From Myxococcales bacterium (GTDB lineage: Bacteria; Myxococcota_A; Bradymonadia; UBA7976; UBA1532), in assembly GCA_947488215.1 (NCBI GenBank), contig CANLBD010000005.1, positions 1-33,311 of the forward strand: DNA of 33,311 nucleotides, written 5' to 3'. Below the pieces are notes generated by a model. That model did not search any database. It was not told where the DNA came from and saw only the letters and a program-made list of their open reading frames with translations. The position numbers and the translations under genes were made by a program. The stretch's first letter is position 1. The number at the start of each line of letters is the position of its first letter. Below are positions 2,050 to 19,146 of this stretch, piece after piece.

Positions 2050-2706
2050 CTATTCGGGCCACATCCCGACGACCTTGATCTCGGGCGCCACGGCCTTCTT
2101 CGCGCGCTTGATCATCACCTTGCGGAGCTGCTCGATCTTCTCGGGGCCGCTCACGTCGGCCACACGCAGTCCGGAGAGCAACATGTTCACTTCGTAGCGA
2201 ATCTTCGAGACTTTGCCCTCGGTGGCCTTCTTCGCCTCCGCCTCGCCCTCGACCTCAACCGCGATCTTGCACTTCAGGAAGCGCTGCTCACCCGGCTCGT
2301 CGAGGTTGATCAAGAAGACCCCGAGACCGACGAGCGTCGTCTTCACCGCGTGGCCGTCAGCCGGTGCCTCGCCATGACCGTCCGCAGCCTCGCCGTGGCC
2401 GTCTGCGGCCTCGCCATGGCCATCTGCGGCCTCGCCGTGACCGTCCGCAGCTTCTCCATGACCTTTGTCTGCGTGCTCGCCCGCCGCGGCAGCAGCGGCC
2501 GCCGCAGGCTTCTTCTTCGCTTTGTCCTTGGGGTCTTCTTCTTCCTTGCCTTTGCCGAGCACGAACATCGCGCCCAGGCCGAGCACGGCGAGCATGTTCA
2601 CGGCGCCCAAGATGACGGGCAGCTTGCTGCCGCCCGCCTTCTTCCCTTCGGCGCCGCCCTCGCCTTCGGCGGCGGCTTCCTCTTTGGGTTTTTCTTCGCT
2701 CGCCAT
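2050..2706 (-). CDS. fliL: Flagellar basal body-associated protein FliL with His/Gly/Glu repeat linker
   Basis: Single TM (LPVILGAVNMLAVLGLGAMFVLG), FliL C-terminal domain (FLINLDEPGEQRFLKCKIAVEVE), position before fliM. Confidence 0.88.
   Translation of the reverse strand: MASEEKPKEEAAAEGEGGAEGKKAGGSKLPVILGAVNMLAVLGLGAMFVLGKGKEEEDPKDKAKKKPAAAAAAAAGEHADKGHGEAADGHGEAADGHGEAADGHGEAADGHGEAPADGHAVKTTLVGLGVFLINLDEPGEQRFLKCKIAVEVEGEAEAKKATEGKVSKIRYEVNMLLSGLRVADVSGPEKIEQLRKVMIKRAKKAVAPEIKVVGMWPE
2350..2460 (-). repeat. 21-bp tandem repeats encoding (HGEAADG)n in FliL
   Basis: Protein segment GHGEAADGHGEAADGHGEAADGHGEAADGHGEAPADGH. Confidence 0.85.
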
Positions 2707-2738
2707 AGTTCTCCCTACCGTGTCCTCTACCCTACAGG

Positions 2739-2774
2739 AAAAAAAAACCGCCCGCCGTGGGTCGCGGCGGGCGG
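2739..2774 (-). terminator. Intrinsic terminator, minus strand, 33 bp upstream of fliL start
   Basis: Perfect 10-bp stem ccgcccgccg (2748-2757) / cggcgggcgg (2765-2774), 7-nt loop, then nine T on the minus strand (A9 at 2739-2747). Confidence 0.92.
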
Positions 2775-3214
2775 TTCAGATTCACTCGGATTCGGTACAC
2801 GCTTCAAAAAGACAACAGCCATGAGCCGAAGTTCGGCGAGCAGTGGGTCAAACCGCCCGAAACGATGGCCTCGCACCGTCTCATGGAGACAAAAAATGGG
2901 TCGTACAACACAACTACACGAACACGTTGCTGTTGGGCGCAGCCTCCTTTCGTACGTTCATGTGCCCCACCTCAGCCGGGTCCTTCCCTGGTCCCTTCGT
3001 CGGCCGGCCGCCACCCGGCTCATGCTGCCTGGACCCGGAGCGACGCCTTCCGTGGCGCGCCATAGAACCGGGTAATCTGGTCCTTCCCTGGACCAGCCAG
3101 CATGAGCCGGGTGTTCGGGCGACCTCCCACGTCCGTGCGAAAAGCCGGGCCCCCTCGCCTTGCGAGAGAGCCCTGGCCGACGCTTTCGGTGGAGGAGCTC
3201 GTTCACTCACCGCT
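2775..3214 (-). ncRNA. Putative sigma54-transcribed structured leader or small RNA upstream of fliL
   Basis: Non-coding interval between a strong sigma54 promoter (3221-3241) and an intrinsic terminator (2739-2774); contains inverted and direct repeats; only Arg/Pro/Gly-rich ORFs without an RBS. Confidence 0.5.
3013..3112. repeat. Imperfect inverted repeat, 20-bp arms (19/20)
   Basis: acccggctcatgctgcctgg (3013-3032) versus ccagccagcatgagccgggt (3093-3112). Confidence 0.85.
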
Positions 3215-3220
3215 CACACA

Positions 3221-3241
3221 CCAATGCGAGCGGCGTGCCAA
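3221..3241 (-). promoter_or_regulatory. sigma54 (-24/-12) promoter reading toward fliL
   Basis: Minus strand TTGGCACGCCGCTCGCATTGG: GG at 3239-3238, N10, GC at 3227-3226. Immediately after the flgE stop. Confidence 0.8.
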
Positions 3242-3245
3242 TGAA

Positions 3246-4562
3246 TCAACGGATCAACTGAAAGACCTCCTGCAACAGAGAGTCCGCCGTCGTGATGGTC
3301 TTGACGTTTGCCTGGTAGGCCTTCTGGTAGGCGAGCAGGTCGATGAACTGGTCGCTGATCTCCACGTTCGATTGCTCGAGCGTGCCGCCCGCGATGGAGC
3401 CGCGGCCGCCCGTCTGCGCGACGCCGATGTTCGCCTGGCCGCTGTCGGGCGTCTCGATGTAGCGATTTCCGCCCACGGAGTTGAGGCCCGTCGGATCGTC
3501 AAATCGCGCCATCGCGACCTGCCCGAGCGTCAAGGTCTTGCCGTTCGTGAAGCCACCCGTGATCAAGCCGGCGGAGTTCACGCTGATGGTCTCCAAGTTG
3601 CCGGTGCCATAGCCATCCTGAGTCAGGAAGCTCGCGGCGCTCTCGGCGACCGTATTCCACTGCGTGCTGCCGCCGCGTCCGGTCCCGCCCGCGGCGATCG
3701 GGTCGCCCCAGTTGAAGTTCAGCGCCCCGGCGTTCGCGCCACCCGTCCACGGCACAGCCACCGGGTTCGGCGTCGTCGCGTTCTGCAGACGCCCCTGCCC
3801 GTCGAACGTCAGCTGGCCCAGGTTCGTCACGACCGGGGTGCCGGCGACGCCGCCCGCGATGTCACCGCCGTCGATCGCCATGTTCATGTCCCACACATCG
3901 GGGGCGGTGCTCACATGCGTCCCGTACACATCGACCTGATGGGAAGTCCCGAGGCTGTCGAAGACGACCATCGAGGTCTTGAAGGACGACGTCGTGTCCG
4001 CGTTCGCGATCTGGAAGCCCGGCGCCGGCACCACCGGGTCGCTGGGCCGCAGGTTCGCGTGGATCGTCATGTTGCTCGTCGCGAGCGGGTCAAGGCTCCG
4101 CCGCGTGACCTGAATATCGCCGAGCGTCGCCGTCAGGTTGCCCGTGGGGTCGGCGCCGTAGCCCTGCACACGGAAGCCGCTCTGGTTGACCAAGTTGCCC
4201 TGGTCGTCGAACCGGAACGAGCCCGCCCGCGTGAAGTAGTTCTGCGTCACGCCGCCCTGGGTGCCCTTGACGATGAAGAAGCCGTCACCGCTGATGGCCA
4301 TGTCGGTCGGGACGCCCGTGTTCTGCATCGCGCCCTGCGTGAACAGGCTCTCGACTCGGGCGAGCGACACGCCCTTGCCGACCTGGTTCGTGCCGCTGGT
4401 GCCGACGATGAACTGGCTGATCAGGTCTTCGAAGTGCGCGCGAGACGCCTTGAAGCCGGTTGTGTTCACGTTCGCGATGTTATTGCCGATGACACCGATT
4501 GCGGTGCCCGCGGCGCCGAGACCGGTGTTGGCGGTGTAGAGCGACGCCAGAATATTTCCCAT
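3246..4562 (-). CDS. flgE: Flagellar hook protein FlgE
   Basis: MGNILASLYTANTGLGAAGTAIGVIGNNIANVNTTGFKASRAHFEDL... and C-terminal SNVEISDQFIDLLAYQKAYQANVKTITTADSLLQEV. ORF track start 4652 is probably too long; AAAGGAA RBS precedes the ATG at 4562. Confidence 0.93.
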   Translation of the reverse strand: MGNILASLYTANTGLGAAGTAIGVIGNNIANVNTTGFKASRAHFEDLISQFIVGTSGTNQVGKGVSLARVESLFTQGAMQNTGVPTDMAISGDGFFIVKGTQGGVTQNYFTRAGSFRFDDQGNLVNQSGFRVQGYGADPTGNLTATLGDIQVTRRSLDPLATSNMTIHANLRPSDPVVPAPGFQIANADTTSSFKTSMVVFDSLGTSHQVDVYGTHVSTAPDVWDMNMAIDGGDIAGGVAGTPVVTNLGQLTFDGQGRLQNATTPNPVAVPWTGGANAGALNFNWGDPIAAGGTGRGGSTQWNTVAESAASFLTQDGYGTGNLETISVNSAGLITGGFTNGKTLTLGQVAMARFDDPTGLNSVGGNRYIETPDSGQANIGVAQTGGRGSIAGGTLEQSNVEISDQFIDLLAYQKAYQANVKTITTADSLLQEVFQLIR

Positions 4563-4648
4563 ACGGATTCCTTTCGTACGCCCGTTCCATGGGCGCCGTG
4601 GACGCGTGGTGCGGCGCTGTGCCGCGCGGCCATCCTGGCCTGTGCCTC

Positions 4649-5059
4649 TCAATCGAGAATGAGCGCGCTGTCTATCTGAGTAAAAACGTGATTCCTGAGC
4701 TCGCTGGGAGAGAGCGCCTTCGTCACGGTGCGTTGGGGCACGTCCACGACGAATGCCGCGTACCGCGCCATCAAAAGCCCCGTCTTTCCGCCACCCTTTG
4801 CGAGCGTGTCCATCCCAACGCCAATCTGGTCGAGCTCGACCTGGCCGAGCGGGATTCCGCGCATGTAAAGCGCCTCTTGAACCTCTGATGCGATCCGGAC
4901 GCGCCCGCCTCCGAGCTCGCCCGACAAGATGTCTTCGAATGAGATCCCACCGGACCGACCGCCCTCGAGCGCACCACGACGCTCCTCGACCCGGGTTGGG
5001 TCGACGATGGAGCGTGGGCCGCCGCGTGGCAGCAGGACGTTGAGACCGTCATTCGCCAA
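4649..5059 (-). CDS. Flagellar operon protein of the TIGR02530 type (between flgD and flgE)
   Basis: RIASEVQEALYMRGIPLGQVELDQIGVGMDTLAKGGGKTGLLMARYAAFVVDVPQRTVTKAL; canonical flgD-X-flgE position. Confidence 0.75.
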   Translation of the reverse strand: MANDGLNVLLPRGGPRSIVDPTRVEERRGALEGGRSGGISFEDILSGELGGGRVRIASEVQEALYMRGIPLGQVELDQIGVGMDTLAKGGGKTGLLMARYAAFVVDVPQRTVTKALSPSELRNHVFTQIDSALILD

Positions 5060-5757: not shown

Positions 5758-7050
5758 TCAAGCCGTCAGGTCGAGTCGTCCACGCGCGCCCCCGCTTCGG
5801 CCGCTGAGCGACCGCTGAGCCGGCGTGGCCTCCGCGACACCGTCCTCGAGCAAGACCGCTCCGTCTTCGTCCGGCCGATGCTCATCGCGTCGCCCCTGAC
5901 CAGACCGTTGGTCTTGCTGTCGAACCTCGACATGAACTGAATGCAGGCCCTGTGCCAACAGGTCCCGGCGGAGCTGGTCGAGGCCCTGAGCCACGAGATC
6001 CCGCACGCCCGCGTGCTCCGTCGTCACGTACAAACGCGCCTGAGTGCCCTCAAGCTCAAGGCGCACGTGCATCTTGCCGAGCTCTGCCGGCTCAAGCCGA
6101 ATCTCGGCGGCCGTCCGCCCCCCCTGGGTGACCATGCGCAGACCGTCGTCAATCTGACGCAGCACCGCCGACTCACTGACACCCTCGGGAAGCGCGGGCA
6201 GCGCAGAGACATACGTCGACAGGGGCGCAGCGGGCGTGGTCGTCACGGGCGCTTGGGTCGGCGTAAAGAGCTGACCCGGCGCAGCCCCCTCGCCCATGTG
6301 CCCGAGCTTGGCGTGCGCGTTCCGTTGCCCGCTGAGCACCGCGGCGAGGTCGGCCTCGGCCTTCACGTGCTGCGCCTCCGCGTTGAGCGTCAGAGTCGCC
6401 GTGTTTTCGGTGCCCTCGACCGTGTCCAGCTCCAGCGCCGCGTCGCCGTCATCAAGGCTGTCGAGCGATTCGCCGTCTGCAGTCCGTGCCCCGCGACCGC
6501 CGATCGTCACGCTCTCGGGTGTCGAGGTGTTGGCCGCCCCCCCGAACGTGGGCAGCGGCCCGGTGCGAGCCGCCAGCATCTGCGCGAGCTGCTGAGTAAA
6601 GGCCTGCTGCGTCCCAGCGCCCTGCAGAGCGTCGAGCGCAGCGCGCGCCCCCCCACCCTCGCTCGGCGCCCCTTGGAGCGCCTGAGTCCATGCGGCGAGG
6701 CCGGCGGCAGCCCCCTCCGCCGCGCTCGCCGAGCCCAGGAGGCCGCCTTTGAAGCCGCCGCCGCCTTGCCCTTGCAGAGCTTGGAGGGCGCTGAGCTGAG
6801 GCACCCGCACCTCGATCGCCCCCGCCATGCCGAGCATCGCAGACCGCGCCGCTTGGTCGAGCGACTGCGCGTCTGCGAACGCCTGCGCGCTCTCTACGGC
6901 GGCGACCTCGGCCGCGCTCAGCGCCGCACCAAAAGCGGCCGCTTGGCTCGCGTGCGCGGGGCCACCGCCGCCTGCGGTCGGCGTCATGGCCGGGCCAGCC
7001 CCGACGTTCAAGTTCATGCTCGGCATCACGTCCATGTGAGGCTCCCGCAT
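5758..7050 (-). CDS. fliK: Flagellar hook-length control protein FliK
   Basis: C-terminal Flg_hook signature AEIRLEPAELGKMHVRLELEGTQARLYVTTEHAGVRDLVAQGLDQLRRDLLAQGL; low-complexity N-terminus; precedes flgD. Confidence 0.88.
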   Translation of the reverse strand: MREPHMDVMPSMNLNVGAGPAMTPTAGGGGPAHASQAAAFGAALSAAEVAAVESAQAFADAQSLDQAARSAMLGMAGAIEVRVPQLSALQALQGQGGGGFKGGLLGSASAAEGAAAGLAAWTQALQGAPSEGGGARAALDALQGAGTQQAFTQQLAQMLAARTGPLPTFGGAANTSTPESVTIGGRGARTADGESLDSLDDGDAALELDTVEGTENTATLTLNAEAQHVKAEADLAAVLSGQRNAHAKLGHMGEGAAPGQLFTPTQAPVTTTPAAPLSTYVSALPALPEGVSESAVLRQIDDGLRMVTQGGRTAAEIRLEPAELGKMHVRLELEGTQARLYVTTEHAGVRDLVAQGLDQLRRDLLAQGLHSVHVEVRQQDQRSGQGRRDEHRPDEDGAVLLEDGVAEATPAQRSLSGRSGGARGRLDLTA

Positions 7051-13016: not shown

Positions 13017-13454
13017 TCAGCTCCCGATCTCGAAGGCGTTCTTCGCCATCTGCTTGATCGTCTGCACGGCGCTCACGTTCGCTTCATACGAGCGGGTCGC
13101 CGTGACCATGTTCGTCATCTCGCCGACGACGCTCAGGTTCGGGTACTCGACGTAGCCCTCACCGTTCGCGTCGGGGTGCTGTGGGTCGTAGACCATACGG
13201 CCCTGCCCCTGTTCCGCCTGCACCGACACCACCTCCGCCGACGCGACCTTGTCGTGCATCACGTCGCCGAGCACCTCATCGAAGGTCTGCGAGAGCGGGA
13301 CTGCGGCGACAATCGCGTGGCGCGGCTTGTAGGCGCCGCCCTCGGCGGTGCGCGTCGTGTCGACGTTCGCCAAGTTGCTGGCGGTGATGTTCATCCGAGT
13401 GCGCTGGACGGAGAGGCCCGACGCCCCAATCTTCATCGCGGTAAAGAAGTCCAT
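13017..13454 (-). CDS. flgC: Flagellar basal-body rod protein FlgC
   Basis: MDFFTAMKIGASGLSVQRTRMNITASNLANVDTTRTAEGGAYK and C-terminal NMVTATRSYEANVSAVQTIKQMAKNAFEIG. Confidence 0.96.
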   Translation of the reverse strand: MDFFTAMKIGASGLSVQRTRMNITASNLANVDTTRTAEGGAYKPRHAIVAAVPLSQTFDEVLGDVMHDKVASAEVVSVQAEQGQGRMVYDPQHPDANGEGYVEYPNLSVVGEMTNMVTATRSYEANVSAVQTIKQMAKNAFEIGS

Positions 13455-13867
13455 CAGCCACCGCTCCCTTCGGTGATGGCGTACTTCATCAGCGCCATCC
13501 GCTTGTTGTAGAAGACGGTGGAGGCCCGATACTGAATCTGGTTCTCCGACATCTTCGCCATCTCGTGGTCGAGGTCGACTGAGTTGCCGTCTAGGTTGGG
13601 CAGCGCGTACGTATCGAACTCGGTGCGCGCGAGCGCCTCGTCCGGCTCAGGCACCACGCTCAAGTGCCCACCATGCGTCTTCGCAATGTCTGCGGGCTGC
13701 TCACCGCTGAGCTGGCGCGCCAGCTCTTCGTCGAACTGCAGATCGAGCGGCGTGTAGTCCGGCGTGTCGACGTTCGCCAGGTTCGCGGAGATGACGTTTC
13801 CGCGCTCTAGGCGAAAGTCGAGGCTGCGCTCGAGGGTCGTTGTCAGTCGGTCGAAAAGTACGCTCAT
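13454..13867 (-). CDS. flgB: Flagellar basal-body rod protein FlgB
   Basis: MSVLFDRLTTTLERSLDFRLERGNVISANLANVDTPDYTPLDLQFDEEL; GGAGG RBS before the ATG at 13867 (track start 13882 lies at the predicted TSS). Confidence 0.95.
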   Translation of the reverse strand: MSVLFDRLTTTLERSLDFRLERGNVISANLANVDTPDYTPLDLQFDEELARQLSGEQPADIAKTHGGHLSVVPEPDEALARTEFDTYALPNLDGNSVDLDHEMAKMSENQIQYRASTVFYNKRMALMKYAITEGSGG

Positions 13868-13890
13868 GGGCGACCTCCACACGCAGGCTC

Positions 13891-13909
13891 AATGCGAGCC
13901 CCGTGCCAA
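13891..13909 (-). promoter_or_regulatory. sigma54 (-24/-12) promoter of the flgB operon
   Basis: Minus strand TTGGCACGGGGCTCGCATT: GG at 13907-13906, N10, GC at 13895-13894; predicted TSS near 13882. Confidence 0.85.
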
Positions 13910-13985: not shown

Positions 13986-16460
13986 TCAAAGCGTCGGCGG
14001 CGGCGAGAACCCCGCCTCTTCGAGCACCCGGGGCGACTCTCGACGGTTCCACCGCAGCAGATCGAGCTCAAGCTTCGCTAGGCGCTTGTAATCGCTCGGC
14101 TTCGGGTCGTTCACCAAGGCGTCGTAGATGCGCACAGCCGTCACGCGGTCTCCGAGCGCGTCGAGCGCGCGCGCCTTATGAAAGTTCGCCTCGTTCAGGC
14201 GCGCATCGTCCGGGTACTCCGCCATGAAGTCGCTCAGGTCGCGCACGATATCCGCCGGCGCGTCGCGCATCATCGACAGCTCCGCGAGCTGCCAACGCAG
14301 CGCGCGTCGCGCCGCGCTCGCCTTGCGCGCCGCGGCGTCGAGCTGAGCGTCCATGAGCTCAAGCTGCGTCCGCAGCGCGCGGTCCTCACGCTCGACCTGA
14401 CCGGTCTCACCGTAGAGCGCGGCGACCTCACCCGAGAGCGCGACCCGGTCTTCACCGGTGACTGGACCGTTCAACGCGAAGACGAGCATGTCGCGGGCCT
14501 CGTTGAGACGACCGCGCGCCCGTGCATCCGCCGCTTTGGCCCGCCAGTAGGGCAGAGTATCGAAGCGGTCGGGATACTTCTTGTCGAGCAGCTTCAGCAC
14601 CTCGCTCAGCTTGAAGGTGTCCCCGAGTCGTGCGAGCGCGCTCGCGAGCTCAACCAGCAGCGCCCCCTCGACATCGGGCTCAATCGTCGCCTCGTCGGTC
14701 TTGAGCCCCCGCTGCCAGACGCTCGCCGCCTCTTCCGTCAGCCCGAAGCGCGCCATCGCGCGTCCAGCGAGCAGGTGCATCCAGGGCCGCTGCGGGTGCG
14801 CTTCGAAGCGCGCGCGCTCACTGTAGTAGGTGCTCAGCGCAGCGAGCGGGCGGTCCTGCTTGACGTAGTTGTGGGTCAGCAGAGCGAGCAGGCGGTCCCC
14901 CAGCTGCGGCGAACGCTTCAAGAGTGCGTCCTGAGGGAACTTGCGCCACACCTCACGCACGCCCTCGTAGGCGGGCCGCAACAAGCCCCCCGCGAGATAG
15001 ACACGCGCCCGCTCCACAAAGAACTCAGGCGCGATGTAGGCGGTCGGGTCGGTGCGCTCGATCTGCCGCAAGATGCGTCGGCGCTCCTTGCCGTCGTTCG
15101 ACATGCGGACGGCCTGCAAAGCCGCGAGCTGCTGCGCCTCAGTGCTGGTCAGCGAGGCGGCGAGGTCGAGCAGGCGCGCTCGCCCCGCAAGCGGGTCGCT
15201 CCGCGTCGACAGCGATGCCAGGCGCACGCGCACGATGGACTGCGGGTGCACATCGCCAAACTGACGGAGAAACGCCTCGTAGTAGACCACCGCATCCGCG
15301 TAGCGCCCGAAGTAGACGCACAGCTCCCCCAGGTGGAACAGCGCCTCGGGGCGCGAGCGCACCAGGTCAGGCCACTGCCTCGCCGCGGCCTCGAGCACCT
15401 CAAGCGCCTTCAGCCACTCTTGGCGCTGATACGCCTGACCTCCCGCGAGCAGCACTGCCCCGCCGATGTTGATGTTCGTGCCCGGCATAGCCTTGAGCCG
15501 CTCAAGGAGCGCCTTCGCCGTCGCGTCGTTGCGTTGGTCGATCGCACTCCGAAGCTGCCCCGCGAGCACCCAGGGCTCCGCGTCGCTGCCCTTGAAGTTC
15601 GCGAGCTTCTCGCCGAGCACGACCTCGGCGCGCGCGGGGTAGCCCATCGGCTCGTAGCCGCGAGACTGCAAGAGCGCGAAGCGCGCCTTGCCCTCCATTG
15701 TCGGCGCGACACGCTCCGCCTCGTTGAGCGCCTCGACCATCGCGCTCAAGTCGGGCGCTCTGCCCTGAGCGCCGAGCGCGCCCATCACCTCACCGAGCGC
15801 CATCTTTGCGGCGACCTGCAAAGGTCCGCGCGGCGCGGCCTGCAGCGCCGCCTCACAGTCTGCGAGGCCTTCCGCAGGCTTCGGTCCGACCGCGCGTCGA
15901 ATGCACGCGTTCACTTTCTCGTGGGCCTCGCTCTCCCCCTCAACCTCCGCGAGCGATGGGCTCGGCGCCGCCGGCTCAAACCGGCCCGGCTTGAGGGGAT
16001 ACGGTCGAAAGGCGACCTCCTCCTCGATGGGATCGCTCAAGAAGCGGGCATAGCCCGCCTCGATGACCCATCGGCTCGGATTCTCAAGGCGCGCTGTCCG
16101 AACGGCGGTCACCTCGCCCGCCGGCGCCGCTCGAAGCGTGAGCCGAACGTCAAAGCCGCCCTTGCGGCGTCCGAGCAGGTCTACGCCCTCAATGACACCG
16201 CCCTTAAAGGTCCGCAGGAGCCGGTTGAAGCCCTCGGGGAGCTCAGACGCCGCGATCGTACACGTCGCTACGAGCGCCTGCTGAGCGCACGTCGCCGTAA
16301 AGCCAACGGGGACAGGCACCTCAAAGCGCCGATATTGGTCGAGCACATCGGGGAAGTCGTCGACGGGCGCGACCGGCTGCGCGGTCGCGACGCCCGGCGC
16401 GAGCAAGAGCAACCCGACAGTCAGCGCGAGACGCAACGGCACCACGACACACGCCTCCAT
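13986..16460 (-). CDS. Large secreted TPR protein with N-terminal beta-rich domain, in flagellar operon
   Basis: Signal peptide LRLALTVGLLLLAPGVATAQ, beta-type N-domain, then TPR-like repeats (FHLGELCVYFGRYADAVVYYEAFLRQFGDVHP...). 824 aa. Confidence 0.75.
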   Translation of the reverse strand: MEACVVVPLRLALTVGLLLLAPGVATAQPVAPVDDFPDVLDQYRRFEVPVPVGFTATCAQQALVATCTIAASELPEGFNRLLRTFKGGVIEGVDLLGRRKGGFDVRLTLRAAPAGEVTAVRTARLENPSRWVIEAGYARFLSDPIEEEVAFRPYPLKPGRFEPAAPSPSLAEVEGESEAHEKVNACIRRAVGPKPAEGLADCEAALQAAPRGPLQVAAKMALGEVMGALGAQGRAPDLSAMVEALNEAERVAPTMEGKARFALLQSRGYEPMGYPARAEVVLGEKLANFKGSDAEPWVLAGQLRSAIDQRNDATAKALLERLKAMPGTNINIGGAVLLAGGQAYQRQEWLKALEVLEAAARQWPDLVRSRPEALFHLGELCVYFGRYADAVVYYEAFLRQFGDVHPQSIVRVRLASLSTRSDPLAGRARLLDLAASLTSTEAQQLAALQAVRMSNDGKERRRILRQIERTDPTAYIAPEFFVERARVYLAGGLLRPAYEGVREVWRKFPQDALLKRSPQLGDRLLALLTHNYVKQDRPLAALSTYYSERARFEAHPQRPWMHLLAGRAMARFGLTEEAASVWQRGLKTDEATIEPDVEGALLVELASALARLGDTFKLSEVLKLLDKKYPDRFDTLPYWRAKAADARARGRLNEARDMLVFALNGPVTGEDRVALSGEVAALYGETGQVEREDRALRTQLELMDAQLDAAARKASAARRALRWQLAELSMMRDAPADIVRDLSDFMAEYPDDARLNEANFHKARALDALGDRVTAVRIYDALVNDPKPSDYKRLAKLELDLLRWNRRESPRVLEEAGFSPPPTL

Positions 16461-18150: not shown

Positions 18151-19146
18151 TCAGTCGTTCTCGTCCGGGGCCATCCAGCCCCGCTTCTTCAGCTTCTCGA
18201 CGAGCGTCGTCCGGTTCATGCGGAGCAACGTCGCGGCGCGATTCTTGTTCCACTCCGTGCGCTCGAGGGCCTGCTTGATGAGGCGGTCCTCCAGCGTATT
18301 CAGCATCTCGCGCAAGTCGAGCCCGTCCTCAGGCAAATCCTGAGCGAACGCGTCCTTCGGGGCGGCCTTGACCGCGCGCCCTTCGGCGACCTTCGGCGGC
18401 AGGTCCTCGATCTGCACGATCTCGTCCATGCAGAACACGGTCAGACGCTCGACCATGTTCTCCAGCTCGCGCACATTGCCGGGCCAGCCATACTCGCAGA
18501 GCTTTTGCAGCGCTTCGTCGCTGTATCCCTTCACGGAGCGCTTGCGCGTCGTCGCGAGCTTCTTGTTGAAGTGCTCAAGGAGCAGCGGCACGTCCCCCGC
18601 CCGCTCTCGAAGCGGCGGGAGCGTGACCGGCACGACGTTGAGTCGATAGAAGAGGTCCTCGCGGAAGCGCCCCGCGGCCACCTCGGCCTCGAGGTCCTTG
18701 TTTGTCGCGGCGACGATACGCACGTCGACCTCGACAGGGCGCGTGCCGCCGACCGGCTCAAACGCCCGCTCCTGAATGACGCGCAGCAGCTTGACCTGCA
18801 AGATCGCGCTCATCTCACCGATTTCGTCGAGAAAGATGGTGCCGTTGTGCGCGAGCTCGAAGCGGCCCTCTCGGCTATGCATCGCGCCCGTGAACGCGCC
18901 CTTGACGTGACCGAAGAGCTCACTCTCGAGCAGGTTCGCGGGGATGGCGCCGCAGTTCACCGGCACCATCGACTTCTTCACGCGCGGGCTGAGCTCGTGG
19001 ATCGCTCGGGCGACGACCTCTTTGCCCGTGCCGCTCTCGCCCAGGATCAAGACCGTGCTGTCGGTCTTAGCGACTTTCTCGATCAAGCGCAAAACCCGCT
19101 GGATCGCGGGGTCCTCACCGACCATCGGACGACTTAACTCGCTCAC
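18151..19146 (-). CDS. sigma54-dependent transcriptional activator (AAA+ and Fis-type HTH, no receiver domain)
   Basis: [30 protein letters not shown]-terminal [27 protein letters not shown]; begins directly at the AAA+ domain. Confidence 0.95.

Follow-up and report, generated by a model that had tools for sequence, protein, structure and literature searches.

A conserved, folded RNA behind the flagellar hook gene flgE in a family of Myxococcota as a candidate CsrA decoy

In the flagellar gene cluster of a Myxococcales bacterium, a stretch of about 475 nt lies between the hook gene flgE and fliL and raises the question of what is made from it and what the product would do. The locus is part of the 33,311-nt stretch of DNA analyzed here (the window), and its features are collected in Table 1. 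A sequence-only reading of this DNA had offered two options: a leader that controls fliLMN by conditional readthrough, or a sigma54-dependent small RNA of the flagellar regulon. It had seen no convincing open reading frame (ORF), and we agree, the largest minus-strand ORF inside the leader being 98 amino acids long and without a Pfam match. A coding region in the leader was rejected: there is no Pfam match, and the covariation described below argues for an RNA. A mobile or repeated element was also rejected, since the leader sequence is present in a single copy in its own genome assembly. The RNA had no match to a known Rfam family at the gathering threshold; the weak matches (best E value of 0.004) mostly track the terminator hairpin.

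Table 1. Positions of genes, RNA features, and candidate sites. Coordinates are those of the window unless a contig of the same genome is given.
Feature	Position	Strand	Remarks
fliN	573-860	minus	
fliM	899-1990	minus	
fliL	2050-2706	minus	ATG at 2706
flgE	3246-4652	minus	
-24/-12 (sigma54-type) promoter-like site TGGCACGCCGCTCGCA	3225-3240	minus	one mismatch to TGGCACGNNNNTTGCW
Candidate small RNA	2739..3214	minus	~475 nt, directly 3′ of flgE; z -4.8; homologues behind flgE
Covarying core, model R1	2977..3145	minus	hairpin B, long stem C with hairpins C1 and C2, hairpin D
Hairpin B	3120..3147	minus	loop ACGGA (3132-3136); candidate CsrA site 1
Hairpin C1, CUGGUCC-AGGGAA-GGACCAG	3077..3096	minus	loop AGGGA (3085-3089); candidate CsrA site 2
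Hairpin C2, GCGCC-ACGGAA-GGCGU	3043..3058	minus	loop ACGGA (3049-3053); candidate CsrA site 3
Hairpin D, GGGACC-AGGGAA-GGACCC	2978..2995	minus	loop AGGGA (2985-2989); candidate CsrA site 4
AAAGGAGG	2943..2950	minus	possible fifth site or Shine-Dalgarno mimic; AGGAGG invariant in eight aligned RNAs
GACCCA motif 1	2897..2902	minus	linker
GACCCA motif 2	2844..2849	minus	hairpin loop
GACCCA motif 3	2758..2763	minus	terminator loop
Intrinsic terminator	2738..2777	minus	12-13 bp stem (2777-2745), GACCCA in loop, nine T
csrA, own genome	G000:C178:3980-4132		adjoins fliW
fliW, own genome	G000:C178:3463-3816		

As had been described, 33 nt separate the end of the intrinsic terminator from the fliL ATG, and the run of nine T also stands; the stem, however, is not a perfect 10-bp helix but was found to have 12 to 13 bp. 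A counterpart of the terminator was seen in 11 of 11 loci.

The region upstream of the terminator folds far better than its shuffles, in agreement with the structured leader proposed for it. The z score was −4.8 for positions 2739-3214 and −5.6 for positions 2900-3200, with no shuffle equally good in either case. Covariance analysis, which the sequence-only reading had named as a check, revealed a structure that is conserved in relatives and covaries strongly. In an alignment of ten sequences, the same from which the scored structure had been predicted, double-sided changes were found in 26 of 49 pairs, 59 cells carried double changes compared to 18.4 in shuffles, and 95.1% of cells were paired compared to 29 to 44% when the partners were slid. 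An independent test of the structure came from the covariance model R1, which was built from eight sequences. Its matches in G008 and G004, two genomes outside the training set (E values of 3e-20 and 3e-15), keep 46 of 48 and 46 of 49 pairs, respectively. Pairing of the conserved GGAGG (2943-2950) with a downstream UCUCC (~2877-2886) is possible in several of the RNAs, with an end pair that varies; it is absent in the others and thus not universal.

The relatives that carry the RNA are Myxococcota metagenome assemblies, and the genomes of the same family were recovered by DNA search. Across 378 genomes of the phylum, R1 gave no match outside the family; distant members with weak scores may have escaped the larger genome searches, whose filters were stricter. 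The gene order fliK-flgD-flgE-RNA-fliL-fliM-fliN recurs in genomes recovered by DNA search (tblastn with flagellar proteins). The RNA lies directly behind flgE in all 10 family genomes with a full flgE match, as well as in L085, a locus from Lake Baikal, and was found in 0 of 3 family genomes without such a match. One of these, G003, probably lacks both flgE and the RNA because of an incomplete assembly. The L085 RNA is without the long stem C and has few sites; hairpins A, B, and D and the terminator are kept. These results support the small-RNA option of the earlier reading: the RNA covaries, has a terminator of its own, and occurs in the family genomes with flgE and in no others of the family.

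The sigma54-type promoter-like site reported after flgE is indeed present in the window, where it carries GG and GC at the right spacing for a −24/−12 element and predicts a transcription start near 3214, but it is conserved only in the window's sub-lineage. Close copies were seen in 4 of 11 loci (the window, G002, G009, and L085), where 52 to 68 nt separate them from the RNA core downstream, and the other seven gave background matches only, with five mismatches. For these seven loci, the flgE transcript is the probable source of the RNA. CJnc230 of Campylobacter jejuni is a precedent for an RNA of such origin (PMC11187230). In the whole window, sites with one mismatch to TGGCACGNNNNTTGCW number three compared to 0.27 expected. 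The two further ones, both on the minus strand, are located behind fliN (545-560) and in front of a flagellar rod-type gene (site at 13893-13908, gene at 13454-13882). A sigma54 activator-type protein is also encoded in the window (18151-19146).

The conserved loops of the RNA read A-N-G-G-A, with the second letter free, and are mostly hexaloops with a C-G closing pair. We counted such hairpins independently of model R1, with stems of at least 3 bp. The 11 RNAs contain 31 ANGGA hexaloop hairpins, compared to a mean of 1.6 and a maximum of 6 in 1000 dinucleotide shuffles, and their antisense strand contains 0. ANGGA is the commonest hexaloop type in these RNAs (31, with 7 for the next) and, among the five commonest, the only one present in all 11; G010 has one strict ANGGA hexaloop only. 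In the window, the stem of hairpin D includes one internal A-A mismatch, and a single instance of the tandem CCANGGANGG is present in the own genome, at the flgE-fliL RNA locus. No start codon was found at a conserved distance from AAAGGAGG. The consensus selected by CsrA in SELEX, RUACARGGAUGU, has its GGA within the loop of a hairpin (PMC7652899); the context C-ANGGAN-G fits it, and by this sequence criterion the ANGGA loops are candidate CsrA (RsmA) sites. Neither these hexaloops nor the linkage to flgE had figured in the sequence-only reading. Further ANGGA hexaloop hairpins stand on the minus strand at 7035, the start of fliK, and at 16460, the start of a gene for a TPR protein (13986-16460). 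Located at or just inside the start codons, they are possible CsrA targets.

All carriers of the RNA have csrA and fliW, close by each other on the same contig. CsrA residues L4 and R44, which we take to be the RNA-binding residues, and N55 were kept in 13 of 13 sequences examined. N55 is the residue that contacts FliW (PMC13407953). ANGGA hexaloop hairpins are also found in 41 of 66 flagellin leaders of the family, 46 in total compared to 2.0 expected, in a sample that includes paralogues and in which neither leaders nor family members are independent. The 66 leaders are what remained of 77 loci after removal of 11 where the start-codon pattern missed the start. In many leaders, the hairpin is located at the Shine-Dalgarno sequence (for example, GUC-AUGGAG-GAC and CAUGUC-ACGGAG-GACAUG), and several have a second ANGGA hairpin further upstream. 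Such pairs are comparable to the two CsrA sites in the hag leader of Bacillus subtilis. When an earlier subset was analyzed, leader hairpins were detected in 0 of 7 leaders of the sister family f2, which is without the RNA, and in 1 of 29 other flagellar genes. In the own genome, the leaders with ANGGA hairpins are at G000:C22 and C66 (L207-L213 and L215), and the flagellin at C22 (L207) has both sites; in relatives, such leaders occur in G002-G012. For a small assembly that is 67% complete, the 11 Flagellin_N matches of the own genome are many; flagellated relatives in the family have 5 to 12.

We propose, with a probability of about 0.68, that the product of the locus is a noncoding RNA of the flagellar regulon, with a conserved fold, that acts as a CsrA decoy and releases flagellin translation alongside FliW. 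The observations behind this reading are the conserved structure, the linkage to flgE, the enrichment of ANGGA hexaloops both in the RNA and in the leaders of flagellin genes, and the occurrence of csrA and fliW in these genomes; all of the evidence is sequence inference from metagenome assemblies. Since copies of the CsrA site are shared with flagellin leaders, the RNA is likely to titrate CsrA and to contribute to the timing of flagellin synthesis. Its own synthesis would coincide with that of the hook. In the window's sub-lineage, the RNA would start at a sigma54-type promoter of its own; elsewhere, it would probably be the 3′-terminal part of the flgE transcript, and its end would be set by the intrinsic terminator. 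CsrA dimers would bind to its hairpins with the hexaloop ANGGAN, the high-affinity CsrA site, of which there are as many as four, and would thereby be withdrawn from mRNAs. Most likely to benefit would be the mRNAs for flagellin, which have such hairpins in their leaders and in many cases at the Shine-Dalgarno sequence; upon expression of the hook genes, their translation would be released in parallel with FliW. Transcription with the hook genes, binding of CsrA, and the direction and timing of regulation are what we infer here. Because FliW already antagonizes CsrA, the RNA might alternatively be a target of CsrA or under its control.

Antagonism of CsrA has been ascribed to small RNAs chiefly in Gammaproteobacteria and to FliW in other bacteria. 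These systems are strongly anti-correlated, the small-RNA side having been gauged through BarA-UvrY (PMC4682653). A 2020 review left the joint use of FliW and small RNAs undetermined (PMC7652899). An RNA family in genomes with csrA and fliW makes this question directly testable. Located beside the hook gene and copying flagellin-leader hairpins, the RNA suggests a checkpoint between hook and filament. A further proposal, which in our estimate could go either way, is that two CsrA antagonists operate at once in this family of Myxococcota, FliW and a hook-linked decoy RNA outside Gammaproteobacteria, unrelated to CsrB, that couples hook formation to the release of flagellin mRNAs, while GACCCA binds another partner. 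Our literature search, which covered only a minority of subscription journals, turned up no report of an RNA of this kind from Myxococcota.

Several GGA-loop hairpins, an intergenic location, and an intrinsic terminator are shared with CsrB/CsrC and RsmX/Y/Z of Gammaproteobacteria, and titration of CsrA would be expected in both cases. As in the CsrB/RsmZ type, several loop GGA motifs are gathered in one noncoding RNA, and csrA has intact RNA-binding residues. However, the RNA did not match any Csr/Rsm family of Rfam, even at E = 10. Unlike CsrB and RsmZ, it has a multibranched fold with a long closing stem, a location behind flgE, a second module of GACCCA loops, FliW in its host, and, in some lineages, a sigma54-type promoter. 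RNAs of the CsrB type often have more sites, CsrB itself having 22 GGA (PMC7652899) compared to 7 to 15 per RNA here. The CsrA-FliW-flagellin partner switch of B. subtilis (hag) and C. jejuni (flaA) also involves csrA-fliW and flagellin leaders with CsrA-type sites, one of them at the Shine-Dalgarno sequence; what differs here is an extra RNA, beside the hook gene, that presents these hairpins as well.

The 3′ half of the RNA contains the motif GACCCA, with 32 copies in 11 RNAs compared to 2.2 in shuffles. It is often found at the 3′ side of hairpin loops, that of the terminator included. Repeated and partly single-stranded, the motif would suit a 3′-UTR–derived flagellar small RNA that acts mainly by base pairing, like CJnc230 (FlmE), with ANGGA recruiting CsrA for stability or matchmaking. 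The absence of a promoter of their own in 7 of 11 loci points the same way. CJnc230 belongs to the RpoN-dependent flagellar class and is likewise a noncoding RNA directly 3′ of flgE in a CsrA-FliW host (PMC11187230). It is set apart by its length (~98 nt versus ~475 nt) and its described structure of two stem-loops; it base-pairs with flgM and other mRNAs, and a CsrA-hairpin array is not among the features that we found described for it (PMC11187230). GACCCAU is perfectly complementary to the flagellin start AUGGGUC, which made an antisense role of GACCCA there attractive. However, this start was found in 0 of 10 sampled flagellins of G005, G006, and G010, whose RNAs carry GACCCA, and the idea is not supported. 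The ANGGA loops are, moreover, kept more consistently than any candidate seed, and we consider a mainly base-pairing RNA unlikely.

The strict linkage to flgE would also fit hairpins that make the 3′ end of the flgE mRNA a CsrA target, for control of stability or termination in the hook operon, rather than a decoy. This appears quite improbable given that four loci have a distinct sigma54-type promoter in the interval from flgE to the RNA and that several sites are located far from any translation start.

The remaining alternative is the conditional readthrough proposed earlier, with leader and terminator forming an attenuator or riboswitch for fliLMN. In its favor, the short interval between terminator and fliL contains TANNNT-like elements whose promoter scores are not above those of shuffles, and fliL follows the RNA in 8 of 10 genomes with model matches and in L085. 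In G008 and G004, however, flgE, the RNA, and the terminator are followed by an ATPase-like ORF and a convergent ABC transporter, respectively; these next genes are unrelated, fliL is not downstream, and both genomes have fliM on a separate contig. The RNA therefore travels with flgE, which argues against control of fliLMN as the conserved function; with RNA-to-fliL spacers that vary in length and content, and with loops carrying a protein-binding motif as the best-conserved positions, we regard this function as very improbable. Partial readthrough into fliL is possible in the window. FliL itself has a histidine-rich DGHGEAA stretch that is repeated and encoded by direct repeats (window positions 2350-2450).
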